Of a stretch of 49,918 bases of DNA, positions 41,172-48,723 are shown one piece after another. Source of the DNA: Pseudomonadota bacterium (lineage in GTDB: Bacteria > Pseudomonadota > Gammaproteobacteria > Xanthomonadales > Rhodanobacteraceae). The stretch covers positions 1-49,918 of the forward strand of contig JAKQJM010000030.1 of assembly GCA_029561145.1 (NCBI GenBank). Direction: 5' to 3'. The translations under genes were made by a program, and so were the position numbers. The number at the start of each line of letters is the position of its first letter. Within the stretch, counting starts at the first letter, position 1. The notes beneath the pieces were generated by a model. The model did no database searches, had not been told where the DNA came from, and saw only the letters and a program-made list of their open reading frames with translations.

Positions 41172-41654
41172 CTAGTCGCCCTCGGGCGCGAGCAGTTCCA
41201 TGGCCATCACGATCGCGTCCTCACGGCCGCGCTTGCCCGGGTAGTAGTTGGGCCGCTTGCCGATCTCGTTGAAACCAACGCTGTCGTAGAGCGCGAGGGC
41301 AGCGGTGTTGGAGGGTCGGACTTCGAGAAAGACGCGCGCAGCACGATGCCAGCGCGCCAGGTCGATCAGGCGTGCGAGCACGCGCCGGCCATGACCGCGG
41401 CCCTGCTCGGCCGGCGCGACGCAGAGATTCAGGATGTGCGCCTCGCCGCCGGCGACCGAAAGCACGCCATAACCGATCAGTTCACCGGCCCGTTCGAGCA
41501 CCCAGCATTCATAACCCGATGAGAGACAGTCCCTGAAGATGCCGAACGTCCACGGATAGGGATAGGCGCTCAGTTCAATGCGCGCGATCGACTCGAGATC
41601 CTGAGCGCGCATCGCGCGGAAGCTTGAGAGCGCTTCTTGCGGGTTCGCCGCCAT
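41172..41654 (-). CDS. rimI: Ribosomal protein bS18-alanine N-acetyltransferase
   Basis: RimI acetylates the N-terminal alanine of ribosomal protein S18. The 160-residue GNAT protein has the acetyl-CoA loop [18 protein letters not shown] (Q/RxxGxG/A motif), [18 protein letters not shown] and the closing [21 protein letters not shown] chose ATG 41654, seven bases after the preceding stop; a frame start further upstream is antisense to nothing but overlaps the HolD-like gene. It ends the long minus-strand unit that starts at pssA. Confidence 0.92.
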
Positions 41655-41661
41655 CGTCCGC

Positions 41662-42150
41662 TCAGGAGCACCGCGCAGTCGCCACGGAGCGCGACAACCG
41701 CTTGATCTCGCCCCACAACGCGCGTTTGGCAGCGGCGTCCCGGGCCAGCGCGAGCATCTCGCGGGTGACGACCCAGAAGATCTCGTTCTGGCGCTGCGCC
41801 GGCATGTCGGCGCCGATCGTTCGGGCGAGGGATTCGCCCAGAACGACCAGGCCGCGAGCCCGGGCGATCGATTCACCCGCTGAACCATCGGCGATCGCGG
41901 CACCGAGTCGCGTCATGCGCAACGCGCGCAGAAGGTCCTGCAACAGCTTTCCATCGGCATTCGGGCCACACAGGACCAGGACGTCCGCGGAATCCTCCGA
42001 TTCAACCGGAACGACAGGAGCAACTGACCGGATCAGCGAGCGGACGACAGGGGATGGCGCCTCGTGACGCATGCCGACGGATTCGCGCCGCGGTACATGC
42101 ACGTCAATGCCGATTTCGGCCAGCAGGCGCAGGCTGTAGTCATCGAGCAT
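41662..42150 (-). CDS. HolD-like (DNA polymerase III psi-type) protein upstream of rimI
   Basis: A 162-residue protein. It opens MLDDYSLRLLAEIGIDVHVP, as do proteins encoded just before rimI in gammaproteobacteria, and contains VLVLCGPNADGKLLQDLLRA and RGLVVLGESLARTIGAD, which resemble the uracil-glycosylase-like fold of DNA polymerase III psi subunits (HolD). The match is weak, and location beside rimI is half of the argument. I chose ATG 42150, overlapping the upstream stop by 11 bases. If it is HolD, it would link clamp loader and SSB; otherwise its function is unknown. Confidence 0.6.
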   Translation of the reverse strand: MLDDYSLRLLAEIGIDVHVPRRESVGMRHEAPSPVVRSLIRSVAPVVPVESEDSADVLVLCGPNADGKLLQDLLRALRMTRLGAAIADGSAGESIARARGLVVLGESLARTIGADMPAQRQNEIFWVVTREMLALARDAAAKRALWGEIKRLSRSVATARCS

Positions 42151-42754
42151 GCTCGTGGGCCTCGCTCTTGAGCAGTTCGGCATGGAACTCGGCAAAAACC
42201 TGGTCGACAGCGCTGGACAGTGCTTCGGCCGTCGATACCAGGCGATTGTCCGGGATGCTGACATCTGCATGATAGATGTCGTCGATCTGCGGCGTGCCGT
42301 CCGGACGATCGGCGCGCAACTTGATCACGACGCTCGCAATGTATCCGCCCCCGACTGCGGGCACCCGCTCGAAACGCAGGATGCCGCCGGTGATCCGGAC
42401 GGCAGCCTGGCTGGCTGGCAGTCCGTCGACAACGAGCGGAGCGATCGCGGCCTCGCGCAATTCGACCAGCAATCGACGCTGCAGCATGCGCGTGGGTGGA
42501 TCGGTCCACAACTGGTAGTGGTACTGGCGCAGTTCGCTGGCCTCCGGATCGAGCGCATAGATCAGCGCACGATCCGCATACAAGCCATCGGCGGCAAACA
42601 GGTTGATGACGATCGGCGTCACGAAAACCTGAGCGGCGCTGACCGGCAAGGATTGCGGCTTGCCCATGCGGAAATAAGTGTGATCGGGTACGCCAGGCAC
42701 ATGCCCGCAGGCAACCAGAACCATGCCCAGGGCCACAACCAGCAGGATTCTCAT
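42140..42754 (-). CDS. ABC-type transport auxiliary lipoprotein (PqiC/YmbA-like)
   Basis: A 204-residue lipoprotein with signal peptide and lipobox LVACG (Cys16; MRILLVVALGMVLVAC). The mature part fits the ABC_trans_aux family (PF03886): YADRALIYALDP, YHYQLWTDPPTRMLQRRLLV and RVTGG-type strand ILRFERVP. Family members sit in the outer membrane and receive lipids from MCE proteins, as PqiC does for PqiB. It starts in a 4-base overlap with mlaD, so it probably replaces the periplasmic carrier MlaC in this transporter. Confidence 0.88.
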   Translation of the reverse strand: MRILLVVALGMVLVACGHVPGVPDHTYFRMGKPQSLPVSAAQVFVTPIVINLFAADGLYADRALIYALDPEASELRQYHYQLWTDPPTRMLQRRLLVELREAAIAPLVVDGLPASQAAVRITGGILRFERVPAVGGGYIASVVIKLRADRPDGTPQIDDIYHADVSIPDNRLVSTAEALSSAVDQVFAEFHAELLKSEAHEHAR

Positions 42755-43677
42755 TGCCCGTCTTCCTCCAGCTTGTCGGGTTCGGGCGAACGCAGCAGTT
42801 GCCCCGGGTTGCGCCGGATCTCGCGACTGAACTCATCGAGATTGCGCGTTGCCGATTCGAGATGATGGGTGATCACGTCCATGCGGCTCGACAGGCTGGC
42901 CATGACGGTCGCGAGATCGGTGATCGAGCCGCGGATGTCACCACGATTCTCGCGCGCGATATCGGCCAGCTCGCCAACGGTCTGGTCCAGCGTCTTGCGC
43001 GTCTCGCGAAGTTCGCCGCTGAGACCCTGCACGTTGCCGAGGATGCCGGCCACCGCCGCGCGGTTCTGCGGCTTGAGCAGGTCATCGAGGGCTGCGGACG
43101 CGCCGTTGAGCTTGCCGAGCAGGGTCTGGGCCTGGCCGAGGATCTCCGGTGCACTGCTGTCAAGCGCACCGGTGATCGAATCGACGCGTTGCGACAGAAG
43201 GGCGATCATCGGCGTGATCTGCTCGCGGGTCAGGCTCGATACCTGCCCCGCCAGTTCGCCGACCGCGGCAAAGATATCGGCGTTCTCGGCACCGGCGATC
43301 TCGCCGCCCTGCGCGAGCACCTCGCGACTGGCGCCCTCCTTGATCCCTATCGACATGTCGGCCAGCAGGCCGCTCGATTGCAGGCGGGCGATGCTGTCCT
43401 TCGGGATCGTCCAGTCGCGCTTGACCGACAGGGTCACCTTGTAGCGTGTGCCGCCCGCATTGCGCTCTGGCGCGATCTCACCGACCTCGCCGATGCGGTA
43501 ACCTTCGTAGAAAACCGGCGCGCCATAACGCAGGCCGGTGACGTTGCGGTAACGCACGAGATAATCGGTCGAGGCACCGCTGCGTCCGGTGATCAGGGCA
43601 AGCCCGACCAGCAGCAGCACGAGCGCCACCGTGACAACCCCACCCACCAACACGTAATTGATCGTGTCGCGCTTCAC
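42751..43677 (-). CDS. mlaD: MCE-domain lipid transport protein, MlaD-like
   Basis: An inner-membrane-anchored periplasmic substrate-binding subunit of an Mla-type ABC lipid transporter. The 308-residue protein has one membrane helix (YVLVGGVVTVALVLLLVGLAL, about 8-28) and an MCE domain (about 38-115: VRYRNVTGLRYGAPVFYEGY). A long coiled-coil C-terminus follows (SQRVDSITGALDSSAPEILG, QTVGELADIARENRGDIRGS). At 308 residues it is longer than E. coli MlaD (183), and the extra helix may form a needle-like tunnel as in PqiB. It starts 67 bases after mlaF and overlaps the lipoprotein gene by 4. Confidence 0.92.
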   Translation of the reverse strand: MKRDTINYVLVGGVVTVALVLLLVGLALITGRSGASTDYLVRYRNVTGLRYGAPVFYEGYRIGEVGEIAPERNAGGTRYKVTLSVKRDWTIPKDSIARLQSSGLLADMSIGIKEGASREVLAQGGEIAGAENADIFAAVGELAGQVSSLTREQITPMIALLSQRVDSITGALDSSAPEILGQAQTLLGKLNGASAALDDLLKPQNRAAVAGILGNVQGLSGELRETRKTLDQTVGELADIARENRGDIRGSITDLATVMASLSSRMDVITHHLESATRNLDEFSREIRRNPGQLLRSPEPDKLEEDGQ

Positions 43678-43744
43678 CCGGGAATTCCCCCTGCCTTCGC
43701 CCGCATTCTACCGTCGGATCGAAACCCGCTGCAGGCGAATCGCT

Positions 43745-44545
43745 TCATGCGTCGACCCCGACCAGGCGACGCAGGTATTCATCGGCATCGACTTGCACCT
43801 CGCGCGGCCGCCGGTTGAGCAGGTCCTGGATGCGTTCGTTGTCCGCGGCGCGCACTTCGGCGGTGGTGCCGGTCATCAGAACGTTGCCCTGGTCAAGCAC
43901 GGTGATCGTGTCGGCGATCTTGAATGCGCTCTCGAGTTCGTGGGTAACCACCACGATGGTCATGCGCAGCGCATCGCGCAGGCGCAGGATCAACTCGTCG
44001 AGCTCGGCCGAGACCACCGGGTCGAGTCCGGCCGACGGTTCATCGAAGAACAGCAGGCGCGGATCCATGACGATGGCGCGTGCCAGCGCGGCGCGCTTGA
44101 TCATGCCGCCGGAGAGCTGGCTCGGCATCAGGTCCTGGAAGCCGCCGAGATTGACGACCTCAAGCTTGATCCGGCTCATGATGCGGATGGTCTGCTCGTC
44201 GAGTCGGGTGTGTTCGCGCAACGGCAGCGCGACATTGTCGCCAACCGTCATCGAGGTCAGCAGCGCTCCACCCTGGAACGAGACGCCGATGCGCTTGCGC
44301 ACTTCGAGCTTTTCGCGCTCGCTGGAACGCGCGATGTCCTTGCCGAACAGCTTGACCGTGCCCGATACCGGACGATTCAGGCCGAGCATGTGCCGCAGCA
44401 GCGTGCTCTTGCCGGAGCCCGAGCCGCCCATGATCACGCGGATCTCGCCTGCATTGACGCTGAAATCGACGCCATGGAGGATCCGCCGCTTGCCGTACCA
44501 GGCTTCGAGCTTTTCGACTTCGATCAGCGGAGCGGACACGTTCAT
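43745..44545 (-). CDS. mlaF: ABC transporter ATP-binding protein, MlaF-like
   Basis: The ATPase subunit of the lipid transporter. The 266-residue protein has Walker A GGSGSGKSTLLRHM (about 39-52), Q-loop SFQGGALLTSMTV, signature LSGGMIKRAALARAI, Walker B LLFFDEPSAGLDP and H-loop VVTHE. The GALLTSMTV motif is typical of MlaF. I chose ATG 44545, in a 4-base overlap with the mlaE stop; a much longer frame upstream is only the out-of-frame reading of mlaE. In E. coli the STAS protein MlaB binds MlaF and controls its activity, which is relevant to the STAS gene upstream. Confidence 0.95.
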   Translation of the reverse strand: MNVSAPLIEVEKLEAWYGKRRILHGVDFSVNAGEIRVIMGGSGSGKSTLLRHMLGLNRPVSGTVKLFGKDIARSSEREKLEVRKRIGVSFQGGALLTSMTVGDNVALPLREHTRLDEQTIRIMSRIKLEVVNLGGFQDLMPSQLSGGMIKRAALARAIVMDPRLLFFDEPSAGLDPVVSAELDELILRLRDALRMTIVVVTHELESAFKIADTITVLDQGNVLMTGTTAEVRAADNERIQDLLNRRPREVQVDADEYLRRLVGVDA

Positions 44546-45339
44546 CGATTGAGGAAGAACGAGAAGATCATGTCGGCAATGATGATCCAGCAGATCGAAA
44601 GCACGACGGCGCGCGTCGTCGCGCGGCCAACGCCCTCGGCGCCGCCGGTGACCGAGAATCCGGTGCTGACGCCGATCAGGGTGATCAACAGCGCGAATAC
44701 GATGCTCTTTGAAATACCCTGGCCGAGGTCGCCGGGCGTCAGCAGCGACATCGTCTGCAGCATGTACGCGGTCGGCGTGACATCCAGCGCCGGCGCGCTG
44801 TACAGCGCGGCGCCGAAGATCGCCACGGCATCGGCAAAAATGGTCAGCAGCGGCAGCATGACCAGCATCGCGATCAAGGCCGGAGCGACGAGGTAGCGCA
44901 CCGGATCGATGCCGATCACGGCCAGGGCATCGACTTCCTGGGAAACCGTCATCGAGCCGATGCGTGCCGCCAGCGCCGAGCCTGAGCGGCCGGCCACAAG
45001 TATTGCCGTGATCAATGCGCCGAACTCGCGCGTGACCGATTTGGCCACCGCGATGACGACCTGCGATTGCGCGCCGAATTCGCCGAGCGCGGAAACGAAC
45101 TGGATGCCGAGCATGATGCCGACGGTGAACGCGAGCAGGCAGACGATCGGCAATGCATCGACCCCGACCTGCCGCATCTGTTCGAACACGGCGCGCAGCC
45201 GCAGCGGCTGGCCGATGCGCCAGCCCAGTATCGCGAGGTGGAGCGACTCGACCAGCAGCATCGCCGCGTAACCGATCCCGCTCAAGGCATCGACCGTGCC
45301 CTTGCCGAGTTTCGCGAGGGGTCGGGTCAGGGCTTCCAA
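44542..45339 (-). CDS. mlaE: ABC transporter permease, MlaE-like
   Basis: The integral membrane subunit of the lipid transporter. The 265-residue protein has five or six hydrophobic helices and the MlaE hallmarks GIMLGIQFVSALGEFGAQS, AKSVTREFGALITAILVAGR, GSALAARIGSMTVSQEVDAL and IDPVRYLVAP. The start is TTG 45339, which overlaps the end of the STAS gene by 13 bases; no ATG or GTG would keep the first helix. Coupled translation with the STAS gene implies a linked function. Confidence 0.93.
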   Translation of the reverse strand: MEALTRPLAKLGKGTVDALSGIGYAAMLLVESLHLAILGWRIGQPLRLRAVFEQMRQVGVDALPIVCLLAFTVGIMLGIQFVSALGEFGAQSQVVIAVAKSVTREFGALITAILVAGRSGSALAARIGSMTVSQEVDALAVIGIDPVRYLVAPALIAMLVMLPLLTIFADAVAIFGAALYSAPALDVTPTAYMLQTMSLLTPGDLGQGISKSIVFALLITLIGVSTGFSVTGGAEGVGRATTRAVVLSICWIIIADMIFSFFLNR

Positions 45340-45680
45340 GCCGGCGCACCGGTGACTTCAGGAATGCCATCGACGTCGGCGACGATCGGAAACACCCGGT
45401 CCAGCCGCGCCAGTTCGAGTACGGCACGCACTGCATCGCTGACCGCGACGAGGGCGAAACCGCTGCCGTTCGTGCGCGCGCTCTGGAATCCTTCGACCAG
45501 GGCGGCGATGCCCGAGGAATCGATGTAGCTGACCTCGCTGAGGACGACACCGACGCGCCGGCTCCTCGCGAGCGCGCCGAGCACCGCGTCGCGAACCTGC
45601 TGTGACCACGACAGGTCGACTTCGCCGCTCAGGCGGATCAAGGTGCGGCCTTCGACTGTCTCCTGCTCGATCCCGTTCAT
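45327..45680 (-). CDS. STAS-domain protein (RsbV/MlaB-like antagonist)
   Basis: A 117-residue single STAS domain. The phosphorylation-site motif VSYIDSSGIAALVEG (about residues 50-64) has the conserved DSSG of RsbV/SpoIIAA-type anti-anti-sigma factors, so it can be a target of a HATPase kinase. E. coli MlaB is also a STAS protein, but it is encoded after mlaC and is not phosphorylated. Here the gene lies directly before mlaE (13-base overlap) and directly after a GAF/PP2C/HATPase gene (4-base overlap). The likely role is a phospho-switchable subunit or partner of MlaF; a role in sigma-factor control is the alternative, but no sigma gene is nearby. Confidence 0.9.
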   Translation of the reverse strand: MNGIEQETVEGRTLIRLSGEVDLSWSQQVRDAVLGALARSRRVGVVLSEVSYIDSSGIAALVEGFQSARTNGSGFALVAVSDAVRAVLELARLDRVFPIVADVDGIPEVTGAPAWKP

Positions 45681-47383
45681 TCCTGATCTTCCCCGCTCGT
45701 TCCGTTGTCGCCGATCCGTTTGCGCATGATCAGGCGGTTGCCCTTGCCATCCGGCAGTCCCTGCAGATTCCAGTCATCCATTACAGCTTCGATCAACGCG
45801 ACGCCAAGGCCGCCGCTGCGGCACTCGCCGAGCGGCTTTGCGCGCACGCAGTCCGGATCGACCGCCGGAGCCGAATCGAGCAAGCGGAATTCGAGCTTGC
45901 CTGCCTCGCTGGTCACGCGCAGATCGATGTCACCCGAATGCCCCGGCCCGTAGGCATGGCGGATGACATTGCAACACGCCTCGTCCACCGCCAGCACGAG
46001 TTTATCCCGAATCGCAGTTTCCACACCTGCATTGTCGAGGGCGGAACGCAGCAGCGAGCGGATCTCGCGCATGTTTTCGGGCCGGGCCGGGAAACGGCGC
46101 TTGAGCAGGACCTCGGGGCCGTGCGCCTGCATTCGCTCGATCAGCAGCAAGGTCGTGTCGTCGACCAGGCGCAGATGCCTGAGTTCGGAAAACATGCCGC
46201 GCAGCCGCGGCTCGGCGGAAGCCCCTGCATGGCGCCTGATCATCTCACGCACTCCTTCGGAGCCGATCGTGCGCCGTTGCGCATCGCGTACGTCGGTCAT
46301 TCCATCCGAGAAACAGTACAGCGAGGCATCGCGCAGGTCGATCGTCTGGCCGTCGAAGCTCATGCCGGCAAGGATGCCGAGCGGCGCACCGCCGGACAGG
46401 TATTCGGTGAATTCGCCACGCCGGTACCGCATCGCCGGTGGAAAGCCGGCGGCGGCAATCTCGACCTCTTGTGCATTCCGGTCGCACCGACCGACCAGCG
46501 CGCAAACGAAACGGCCTTCAAGGCTGGTCTCGCAGAGCTCCTCGTTGACACGCGCCAGCCATTCCGGGGGTGCGATGCCTTCCTTGCCGACCCAGCGCAG
46601 CAGCGAAGCCGTGCGCACCATCAACAAGGCGGCATCGAGTCCCTTGCCCGAAACGTCGCCGATGAAGAATCCGATGCGGCCATCGGGAAGATCGAAGTAG
46701 TCGTAGAAATCACCCGAGATCTCGTGCGCCGGCAGATTCATGCCGAGCAGCGGGAATCCACCACGACGTCGCTTCGGCAGCAGGGATTTCTGCATGCGCC
46801 GGGCCAGATCGAACTCGCGCCGCATGCGTGCCTGCTGGACCAGTTCATTGGCCATGCGGGCATTGTTGATGGCCAGCGAGGTAGGCGCGGCGACGAGGCG
46901 CAGGATCTCGGCGTCATCGGCACTGAAGGATCCACCGCTGCGCTTGTTGACGACCTCGAGCGCGCCGATCGGCCCCTTGGCCGTTGCCAGCGGCGCGCAC
47001 AGCAGGCTGCGCGTGACAAACCCCGTATCGCTGTCGTTCGAACGATCGACGCGTTTGTCGCTCAAGGCGTCGCTGACGAACTGGCTGCGGTTCTCGGCCA
47101 CGGCACGGCCGACAACGCCCTGGCCGAGCGGTATGCGCAAACCGGAGATATCGATCGGCCCGACACAGACGCGGCATTCGAGCATGTTGCCGTCGTCATC
47201 GAGCAGGAACAGCGAGGCCGCCTCGGCATCCATGAAATCGGCGATGCGATTGACCGCTTCGCCGAGTGTCTGGCGCAGGTCGAGGGACACTGCCAGGGTT
47301 TCCGAAAGATCCGCCAGGAAGGCGAGCGCACGCGCTTCGCTGGCGCCGGACGTTGATTGCTGCCTGGCCAGCCCGCTGCTCAT
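45677..47383 (-). CDS. GAF - PP2C (SpoIIE) phosphatase - HATPase kinase fusion protein
   Basis: A 568-residue cytoplasmic regulator. Residues about 20-180 are a GAF sensor domain (FMDAEAASLFLLDDDGNMLE). Residues about 190-395 are a SpoIIE-type PP2C phosphatase with metal-site acids in HEISGDFYDYFDLPDG and FFIGDVSGKGLDAALLM. Residues about 420-560 are a HATPase_c domain with N box KLVLAVDEACCNVIRHAYGP and G box SGGLGVALIEAVMDDW. It thus has both arms of a partner switch: it can dephosphorylate and rephosphorylate a STAS protein. Its start overlaps pssA by 4 bases and its stop overlaps the STAS gene by 4. The GAF ligand is unknown. Confidence 0.93.
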   Translation of the reverse strand: MSSGLARQQSTSGASEARALAFLADLSETLAVSLDLRQTLGEAVNRIADFMDAEAASLFLLDDDGNMLECRVCVGPIDISGLRIPLGQGVVGRAVAENRSQFVSDALSDKRVDRSNDSDTGFVTRSLLCAPLATAKGPIGALEVVNKRSGGSFSADDAEILRLVAAPTSLAINNARMANELVQQARMRREFDLARRMQKSLLPKRRRGGFPLLGMNLPAHEISGDFYDYFDLPDGRIGFFIGDVSGKGLDAALLMVRTASLLRWVGKEGIAPPEWLARVNEELCETSLEGRFVCALVGRCDRNAQEVEIAAAGFPPAMRYRRGEFTEYLSGGAPLGILAGMSFDGQTIDLRDASLYCFSDGMTDVRDAQRRTIGSEGVREMIRRHAGASAEPRLRGMFSELRHLRLVDDTTLLLIERMQAHGPEVLLKRRFPARPENMREIRSLLRSALDNAGVETAIRDKLVLAVDEACCNVIRHAYGPGHSGDIDLRVTSEAGKLEFRLLDSAPAVDPDCVRAKPLGECRSGGLGVALIEAVMDDWNLQGLPDGKGNRLIMRKRIGDNGTSGEDQE

Positions 47384-48171
47384 TTCTCGCCGTGTTCGCT
47401 ACCGCGGAGCGCGCGTTTTTCGCGCCAGCGGCGCAGTCCCCACAGGGTCATGACCGGACCGGACAACACGTACAGCACGCCGATGCAGAACAGCACGCGG
47501 GGCGGATCGATGACCAGCGCAACGATGATCAGCAGTGCAGCCGGTATCCAGATGAACGGCACGCGGTCCGATGTCGGCCAGGCCTTGAAGCTGAAATAGC
47601 GAATGTTGCTGACCATGAGCAGGCCGGCAGCGACCGCGATCACCGGCGTGACGAACTGCACGTCGATGCCGCTCTTGTCGAATTTCTCGATGGTCCAGAC
47701 GAAGGACATGCACAGACCCGCAGCGGCCGGGCTGGCCAGTCCCTGGAAATAGCGCTTGTCGGCGACCCCGACCTGGGTATTGAAGCGGGCCAGGCGCATC
47801 GCTGCGCAAGCCGCGTAGATGAAGGCCGCGGACCAGCCAACCTTGCCCCAGAGCGAACCGTACTCGGTCAGTGACGACAGCGACCAGGTATACATGACCA
47901 GGGCCGGTGCCACGCCGAAACTGACCAGGTCCGAGAGCGAGTCGTACTGGACACCGAAATCGCTCTGGGTACCGGTCATGCGGGCGACCCGCCCGTCGAG
48001 GCCATCGAGGATGCCGGCGATGAAGACTGCTAGCGCCGCTTCCGAATAGCGCCCGCCGATCGCAGCCACTATGGCGTAGAAACCGGCAAACATCGCACCC
48101 GTCGTGAACAGGTTCGGCAGCAGGTAGATGCCGCGGGGTCGCTTGCGCGCTGTGGTCGGTATTTCTTCCAT
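47380..48171 (-). CDS. pssA: CDP-diacylglycerol-serine O-phosphatidyltransferase
   Basis: PssA makes phosphatidylserine, the precursor of phosphatidylethanolamine, at the inner membrane. The 263-residue protein carries the CDP-alcohol phosphotransferase motif D(x)2DG(x)2AR(x)8G(x)3D(x)3D as DGLDGRVARMTG..SDFGVQYDSLSD (about 60-87) and about eight hydrophobic helices. It is the membrane type, as in Bacillus and Xanthomonadales, not the phospholipase-D-like type of E. coli. I chose ATG 48171; the frame extends to 48285 but the extra 38 residues are polar and unsupported. It opens the unit that continues with the GAF/PP2C/HATPase, STAS and mla genes. Confidence 0.94.
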   Translation of the reverse strand: MEEIPTTARKRPRGIYLLPNLFTTGAMFAGFYAIVAAIGGRYSEAALAVFIAGILDGLDGRVARMTGTQSDFGVQYDSLSDLVSFGVAPALVMYTWSLSSLTEYGSLWGKVGWSAAFIYAACAAMRLARFNTQVGVADKRYFQGLASPAAAGLCMSFVWTIEKFDKSGIDVQFVTPVIAVAAGLLMVSNIRYFSFKAWPTSDRVPFIWIPAALLIIVALVIDPPRVLFCIGVLYVLSGPVMTLWGLRRWREKRALRGSEHGEK

Positions 48172-48315: not shown

Positions 48316-48723
48316 ATGAAGCCCAGCTCGATTGTACTGATCCTGCTTTGCCTGGCGGCTGCCCCGGCCGGCGCGCAGCAGGTCTACTCATGGACCGATG
48401 CCAACGGCACCAAGCATTTTTCCGACACCCCGCCGCCGCCGAACACGACTTCCGCCAAGAAGCTGGTCGTCCGTGGAGGCGTGACCAGCGCCGAGGAGGA
48501 TGCTGCGGCAAAGATCGAGGGCGAACCGAAGGAAGGCCCGAAGATGGCGGCTGCCGCCGGCTACAGCGAAGCGGACATCAAGCGCAATTGTGCCGCAGCG
48601 CAGAAGAACCTCACGACCTTCGAGGCCTCCAAGCCAGGCGACGATGCCGACGCCGATGACCAGGCTCGCTATCAGGCAGACCTCAGCAAGGTGCAGGACC
48701 AGATCAAGCTGTTCTGCGGTTGA
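48316..48723 (+). CDS. DUF4124-domain exported protein
   Basis: A 135-residue exported protein from ATG 48316, six bases after GGAG. It has a signal peptide (MKPSSIVLILLCLAAAPAGA, cleaved near GAQQ) and then a DUF4124 domain (QVYSWTDANGTKHFSDTPPP), a short beta-motif common in Xanthomonadales and Pseudomonas periplasmic proteins, often seen beside cell-envelope genes. The C-terminal part is helical (YSEADIKRNCAAAQKNLTTF) with two Cys residues, the last at the penultimate position (KLFCG). Function unknown. It is divergent from pssA. Confidence 0.88.
   Translation: MKPSSIVLILLCLAAAPAGAQQVYSWTDANGTKHFSDTPPPPNTTSAKKLVVRGGVTSAEEDAAAKIEGEPKEGPKMAAAAGYSEADIKRNCAAAQKNLTTFEASKPGDDADADDQARYQADLSKVQDQIKLFCG

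Follow-up and report, generated by a model that had tools for sequence, protein, structure and literature searches.

The 49,918-nucleotide stretch of DNA analysed here (the window: contig JAKQJM010000030.1, positions 1 to 49,918, assembly GCA_029561145.1) comes from a gammaproteobacterium of the order Xanthomonadales, family Rhodanobacteraceae, and contains a gene unit in which a GAF-PP2C-HATPase protein (designated GPH) and a small STAS protein are encoded directly ahead of the genes of an MCE lipid transporter. Gene order, co-occurrence and conserved residues make it likely that a partner switch of the RsbU/RsbW type controls this lipid transporter, through a MlaB-like STAS protein, rather than a sigma factor; lipid transport would probably be switched on and off through one subunit of the transporter by the sensor, kinase and phosphatase encoded with it. 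Each part is of a known kind, and it is for the combination of a partner switch with an MCE lipid transporter as its dedicated target that our searches of the open-access literature gave no printed description. Loci, genomes, contigs and families are labelled below with L, G, C and f numbers, respectively.

Organization of the gene unit

All genes of the unit are located on the minus strand. GPH (45677-47383) codes for a protein of 568 amino acids with, from Pfam and NCBIfam matches, a GAF sensor domain (GAF_2), a long helix, a PP2C phosphatase domain (SpoIIE, PF07228, E 4.9e-38) and a kinase domain of the RsbW/SpoIIAB type (HATPase_c_2, PF13581, E 4.5e-28). Its AlphaFold2 model (predicted local distance difference test score, pLDDT, 82.2; predicted template modelling score 0.56) places the long helix at residues 155-201, between GAF and PP2C. 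Among named genomes, GPH is closest to proteins of Lysobacterales bacterium 63-13 and Dokdonella (81-85% identity for the five best). The STAS gene (45327-45680; STAS, TIGR00377 above cut-off) codes for a 117-residue putative MlaB-like subunit, whose presumed phospho-acceptor is Ser55 or Ser56 in a DSSG motif. It is followed by mlaE (44542-45339, TTG start), coding for the ABC permease (PF02405, E 1.8e-69), and by mlaF (43745-44545), coding for the ABC ATPase (ABC_tran; best NCBIfam match MlaF NF008809, below cut-off), which ends in a Y[LM]xxL tail, the handshake helix. Further downstream are mlaD (42751-43677), for a long single-MCE protein of 308 amino acids (PF02470, E 2e-12), and a gene for a PqiC-type lipoprotein (42140-42754; ABC_trans_aux, PF03886, E 2.5e-7).

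The preliminary description had reported an order pssA-GPH-STAS-mlaE-mlaF with overlaps of 4, 4, 13 and 4 bases, and coordinates and domain matches confirmed it. A 67-base gap separates mlaF from mlaD, which overlaps the lipoprotein gene by 4 bases. Among the nine proteins of the unit, no sigma factor was detected with Pfam and NCBIfam, a client elsewhere in the genome not being searched for, and the same two databases gave no match to MlaC or MlaA.

Conservation of the gene order in Xanthomonadales

With GPH as query, 50 loci were obtained from named genomes, 30 of them at 50-85% identity (L016-L045) and 20 at 25-46% (L046-L065). The order GPH-STAS-mlaE was present in 29 of the 30 close loci, the contig of the remaining one (L041) ending inside GPH. 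Independently, 299 genomes of the order were searched with MlaE alone; besides the window's own, 66 orthologues reached 49% identity or more, and the surroundings of each were examined. Of these 66 loci, 35 have the arrangement pssA-GPH-STAS-mlaE intact, like the window. The remaining 31 are all from a single family (f9) and have STAS-mlaE-mlaF-mlaD, mostly with the lipoprotein gene, with neither GPH nor pssA adjoining. A STAS gene directly precedes mlaE in 65 of the 66 loci (35/35 linked to GPH and 30/31 unlinked); the sole exception is the f9 locus L104, without a STAS match and with its mlaE close to a contig end. With loci chosen only for a mlaE orthologue, this order is far beyond chance. 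The loci L016-L045 and L066-L100 are partly on the same contigs, and the residue counts given below use distinct sequences.

Four f12 loci have neither mlaF nor mlaD downstream, and six f4 loci have no mlaD there. Orthologues of mlaF were found elsewhere in 4/4 f12 genomes (73-77% identity), and orthologues of mlaD elsewhere in 10/10 of the other genomes searched, in two pieces in G033. A loss of mlaF or mlaD at these loci (L079, L080, L082, L083, L085-L090) was thus ruled out, orthologues being present elsewhere in all genomes searched. In f4 and f5 (L078-L083, L085, L086, L093-L095, L098) GPH seems to be split into tandem GAF-PP2C and HATPase genes, judging by two partial matches or a short first frame. 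The genome G104, which does not have the main system, contains at L133 a distant PP2C protein with FHA and GAF domains, followed in order by HATPase, STAS, mlaE and mlaF, perhaps an independent coupling.

Co-occurrence of GPH and mlaE

The f9 genomes are not free of GPH, an orthologue of 40-45% identity being encoded elsewhere in 27 of the 31 (search of the 299 genomes), and their use as a kinase-free control was dropped for this reason. Over the 299 genomes, 63 have both GPH and mlaE, 4 mlaE only, 2 GPH only and 230 neither (Fisher p 4e-57, table and p ignoring shared ancestry). All six discordant genomes (mlaE only, G123, G143, G148 and G192; GPH only, G073 and G172) are assemblies of about 150 to 600 contigs. 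Presence of the pair is patchy within families f1 and f2, and G031, of the same genus as the window, has neither gene.

We inspected 20 separate GPH loci, 19 from f9 and one from f12 (L154). No STAS match was found in any of them; at least 1.1 kb after the HATPase domain was covered in 18 of the 20, L154 and L157 holding too little sequence after GPH. In the 19 f9 genomes searched with PF01740, from which model strongly divergent STAS domains may have escaped, the mla-linked STAS was the sole match in a short frame in 17. The two exceptions are G192, with an extra match in a 282-residue frame, and G123, where the mla-linked STAS was not found. The remaining matches fall within frames of 499-623 residues that appear to resemble SulP transporters.

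Occurrence in other families of the class

The class search covered 321 genomes with GPH as query, and all 43 matches outside the window's own genome were examined, loci that were therefore selected by similarity to GPH and not by mla genes. A HATPase-STAS pair adjoins mlaE or mlaF in 31 of the 43 (31 genomes, 22 families), 27 of these coming from the first 38 loci and 4 (L279-L282) from the last 5; among the 27, the mlaF match of L201 is weak and cut by the contig end. The preliminary description had suggested a search for the order across Xanthomonadales genomes and had held that its restriction to this genome would speak against the proposed switch. It is clearly not so restricted: the arrangement is carried by 35 other genomes of the order and its core is found in 22 further families of the class.

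The sensor varies between these loci. GAF is found beside PP2C in 25 of the first 38 class loci, HDOD in all seven class proteins scanned for it, and FHA-GAF in the distant case L133 of the window's own order. In L177 and L197 the module has MlaA and MlaC as neighbours, and MCE transporters of two kinds are thus associated with the switch core. It seems fairly probable, if less so than the case of the window itself, that in at least 22 gammaproteobacterial families besides the order two types of MCE transporter, one Mpc-like and one Mla with MlaC/MlaA, are phospho-switched through the STAS protein, with GAF, HDOD and FHA-GAF as interchangeable sensors on the phosphatase. No fused STAS-kinase or STAS-MlaF protein was found in those loci that were examined for it. 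Four genomes have a separate GAF-PP2C gene besides the PP2C of the module (L188/L196 in G333, L191/L198 in G586, L195/L281 in G396 and L190/L279 in G342), the module PP2C being an HDOD-PP2C in L196 and L198, and two sensory inputs may perhaps reach one STAS there.

Conserved residues of GPH, STAS and MlaF

Among 111 distinct STAS sequences, all of which have the serine (111/111), 109 read DSSG and 2 DSSA at the motif, and the four STAS sequences added later also have DSSG. Two of the 111 come from L185 and L200, loci where no mla match adjoins. The STAS domains fused to MlaE, from 46 loci of the order, have Thr in 24, Ser in 14, Ile in 4, Leu in 3 and Ala in 1, and 8 of the 46 have neither Ser nor Thr; these residues were read by eye from the motifs, and an automated tally differs for a few rows (other motif or none). 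By itself the serine proves little, because it is equally invariant in f9 where GPH is unlinked, and it was rejected as stand-alone proof of phosphorylation; what counts more is the presence of GPH elsewhere in 27 of the 31 f9 genomes.

The PP2C residues Asp225, Asp243, Asp360, Asp408 and Asp409 are invariant (108-110 sequences), as are Glu468, Asn472, Asp503, Gly524, Gly527, Gly548 and Asn549 of the HATPase domain (100 sequences), in which the N, G1 and G2 boxes are present. In the GAF domain, Cys70, Asn146 and Asp157 are each kept in 96/96 and Phe153 in 95/96. Two further cysteine residues, Cys129 (86/96) and Cys73 (67/96), accompany the invariant Cys70, and a redox or metal sensing function is possible. 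The GPH profile matches, among others, the GAF domains of cyclic-nucleotide phosphodiesterases, and we take the N..F...D pattern of the domain to resemble the NKFDE motif, as a lead for the signal only.

The C-terminal Y[LM]xxL tail of MlaF was found in 103/103 distinct sequences and in 0/6 of the MlaF sampled beside STAS-MlaE fusions; the canonical-type MlaF of the window genome (L140) has a related tail. A Y..L match in L133 falls upstream of the tail and was discarded as spurious. In E. coli, Tyr261, Leu265 and Leu266 of the MlaF tail insert at the MlaF-MlaB interface, as described in PMC7367683. After its VF motif, the STAS protein ends with a median of 3 residues in f9 (n=30), 12 in the linked group (n=36) and 14 in the class (n=25). 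The account of MlaB in PMC7367683 describes it as likewise being without the C-terminal strand and helix of SpoIIAA.

Proposed mechanism and its relation to known systems

In SpoIIAA and RsbV, the serine of the DSSG site is phosphorylated by a HATPase kinase and freed by a PP2C phosphatase. The transporter of the window is an MCE-type ABC system made of MlaE, MlaF, the long MlaD and the PqiC-type lipoprotein, and the small STAS protein would be docked on MlaF as a MlaB-like subunit. The HATPase domain of GPH would phosphorylate the DSSG serine and the STAS protein could then no longer sit on MlaF; MlaF would become inactive or detach from MlaE, and transport would stop. A signal perceived at GAF (HDOD or FHA-GAF in relatives) would cause PP2C to strip the phosphate, and the dephosphorylated STAS would rebind MlaF so that transport resumes. 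The gene order, co-occurrence, intact catalytic residues, invariant serine and clamp tail of MlaF are seen in the sequences; from them we infer the phosphorylation and MlaF binding of STAS as well as the signal and the direction in which the switch works. The proposal of the preliminary description that the STAS protein keeps its phospho-serine, has a dedicated kinase/phosphatase and is likely a MlaB-like subunit is upheld by gene order, co-occurrence and residues, and its interpretation as a whole is partly supported.

The switches RsbU/RsbW/RsbV and SpoIIE/SpoIIAB/SpoIIAA likewise consist of a PP2C phosphatase, a GHKL-type kinase and a DSSG STAS protein with the key residues kept. In contrast to them, a single GAF protein unites kinase and phosphatase in the window and in the majority of linked loci of the order, the STAS protein is tied to an ABC transporter, and the proteins of the unit include no sigma factor. 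SiaABCD and SypE/SypA are also switches in which a kinase acts on a STAS or STAS-like protein and the output is not a sigma factor, but the target there is a diguanylate cyclase or biofilm control and not a transporter.

With the E. coli Mla system the unit shares MlaE, MlaF with its clamp tail, the MCE protein MlaD and a separate STAS subunit; it differs from it by the lack of MlaC/MlaA, the long MlaD, the PqiC-type lipoprotein and the RsbV-like STAS with DSSG. According to PMC7367683, E. coli MlaB is required to keep MlaF on MlaE, Thr52 of MlaB lies near the centre of the MlaF interface and T52E weakens binding. Control of MlaB by phosphorylation was proposed for E. coli (PMC7367683, PMC5016091), the passages concerned naming no kinase or phosphatase, and PMC7367683 calls the regulation of MlaB an open question. 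The Brucella Mpc (Mla-Pqi chimeric) system described in PMC12436622 is close to the unit in having MlaE, MlaF, a MlaD about twice the usual length and a PqiC-homologous lipoprotein, without MlaC; its STAS domain is fused to MlaE, whereas that of the window is a separate protein, accessible to a kinase, and the passages concerned name no kinase/phosphatase for Mpc. The window genome contains two further MlaE systems. On C107 (L139), STAS is fused to MlaE in a Mpc-like arrangement (PF02405, and PF13466 just under cut-off), and C141 (L140) has mlaF, mlaE, mlaD and a separate STAS_2 protein, by its look a canonical mlaFEDCB system.

If the proposed switch operates in all these families, lipid traffic between the two membranes would be under a general form of post-translational control. 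The module offers a candidate answer to the question of how such lipid transporters are regulated, and the switch would carry partner switching beyond transcription into membrane transport. The kinase and phosphatase dedicated to the transporter are encoded beside it in many families, including named cultured strains such as Rudaea cellulosilytica DSM 22992 (L027) and Tahibacter aquaticus DSM 21667 (L032); as they are conserved and present in such strains, the idea of MlaB phosphorylation becomes directly testable.

Evidence against the proposed switch and alternative explanations

Several observations weigh against a phospho-switch of the transporter. By sequence and fold, the STAS protein is nearer to RsbV/SpoIIAA than to MlaB. 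Its model (pLDDT 88.6) finds SpoIIAA, RsbV from kinase complexes and a Thermotoga homologue as best PDB matches (template modelling, TM, score 0.78-0.81 for the first five); the E. coli and P. aeruginosa MlaB structures match less well, first at rank 24 (TM 0.55-0.65), and with the MlaB equivalog NF033618 the protein reaches 26.1 bits, the cut-off being 90. The serine could be invariant for the sake of the interface or of ATPase coupling rather than phosphorylation, the E. coli T52A substitution abolishing ATPase activity with the complex kept and MlaB not released, as reported in PMC5016091. At two class loci (L185, L200) no mla match adjoins HATPase-STAS, and in ten others STAS or HATPase is not linked or the contig breaks off: L188, L190, L191, L192, L195 and L278 have GAF-PP2C alone, several of them on short contigs, L180 has no STAS, L189 a distant HATPase, L199 ends after the HATPase and L208 is a distant paralogue. 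At the 20 distant loci L046-L065 from named genomes, where the similarity to GPH is mostly confined to PP2C, mlaE gave no match and STAS matched only weakly and on the opposite strand. Finally, the neglect of shared ancestry in the co-occurrence table counts on the same side.

The flow of information could also run in reverse, with the transporter as the sensor: MlaF would compete with the kinase for STAS, and the free STAS would set the hold of the HATPase on a client elsewhere, a sigma factor or a transcription regulator. We regard this as unlikely, although RsbW-type kinases usually have a second client, as is established for the family, the same STAS face would presumably serve both partners, and the window genome has other partner-switch parts, STAS and PP2C on C15 and a RsbW-like HATPase on C48. 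The sensors sit on the phosphatase and are swapped between families, which points to an input there, and inspection by eye of the open reading frame listings for the window end and selected loci, which was not a systematic search, recognised no sigma factor or regulator. In C15 (L142) the STAS and PP2C genes are on opposite strands, and the RsbW-like HATPase is at L141 of C48; cross-talk with these parts is possible.

An ordinary sigma/anti-sigma switch merely sharing an operon with the transporter, in which STAS binds the HATPase only, would fit the best matches of the STAS protein, RsbV/SpoIIAA. It is nevertheless very improbable: where the unit is split in f9 it is STAS and mlaE that stay together (30/31) and not kinase and STAS, 17 of the 19 f9 genomes tested have no other short STAS frame, the clamp tail of MlaF is conserved, and the association spans 22 further families and two types of transporter. 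Slightly less credible still is a constitutive structural STAS, its serine kept for ATPase coupling and GPH inert or acting elsewhere, since all listed catalytic residues of GPH are invariant and Ser is found in 111/111 kinase-linked STAS against 14/46 fused to MlaE, 8 of these 46 being non-phosphorylatable, even if Thr52 of MlaB is reported in PMC5016091 to matter for ATPase activity with no phosphorylation known.

Limits of the module and neighbouring genes

The preliminary description had listed nine genes, the first five joined by overlaps, and their layout stands as described. Upstream of GPH, pssA (47380-48171, minus strand) codes for phosphatidylserine synthase (CDP-OH_P_transf; TIGR00473 above cut-off). 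The downstream neighbours, both on the minus strand, are a HolD-like frame (41662-42150), which overlaps the lipoprotein gene by 11 bases, and, after a 7-base gap, rimI (41172-41654; TIGR01575 above cut-off). The frame between the lipoprotein gene and rimI, previously called HolD-like, exists; it gave no Pfam and no NCBIfam match and, family support being absent, its label rests on the place before rimI.

In 12 of 12 sampled genomes devoid of the module, pssA is followed by rimI with space only for a holD-sized frame, and a holD-like match was found in between in 8 of the 12, one of the eight being very weak. As pssA-(holD)-rimI is contiguous without the module, GPH, STAS, mlaE, mlaF, mlaD and the lipoprotein gene sit as a six-gene block between these genes. 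The six-gene module seems to have been either inserted into, or lost from, a default order pssA-holD-rimI. The genes holD and rimI are thus not parts of the functional module, and the same is probably true of pssA. Within the order pssA adjoins GPH in the window, in 35/66 mlaE loci and in 20/20 separate GPH loci. No pssA match was found in any of the 43 class loci of other families, some of which are on short contigs, and a coordination with phosphatidylserine synthesis, earlier suggested, finds no support as a general property. For this reason, and because pssA-(holD)-rimI is contiguous in the 12 module-less genomes, pssA was rejected as a functional part.

The tRNA and Rfam scans gave nothing. 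Divergent from pssA, a frame on the plus strand (48316-48723) codes for a small protein, presumably DUF4124-like, in which VYSWTDANG comes after a start resembling a signal peptide, and a similar protein is encoded upstream of pssA in f9 loci (e.g. L144 and L145).

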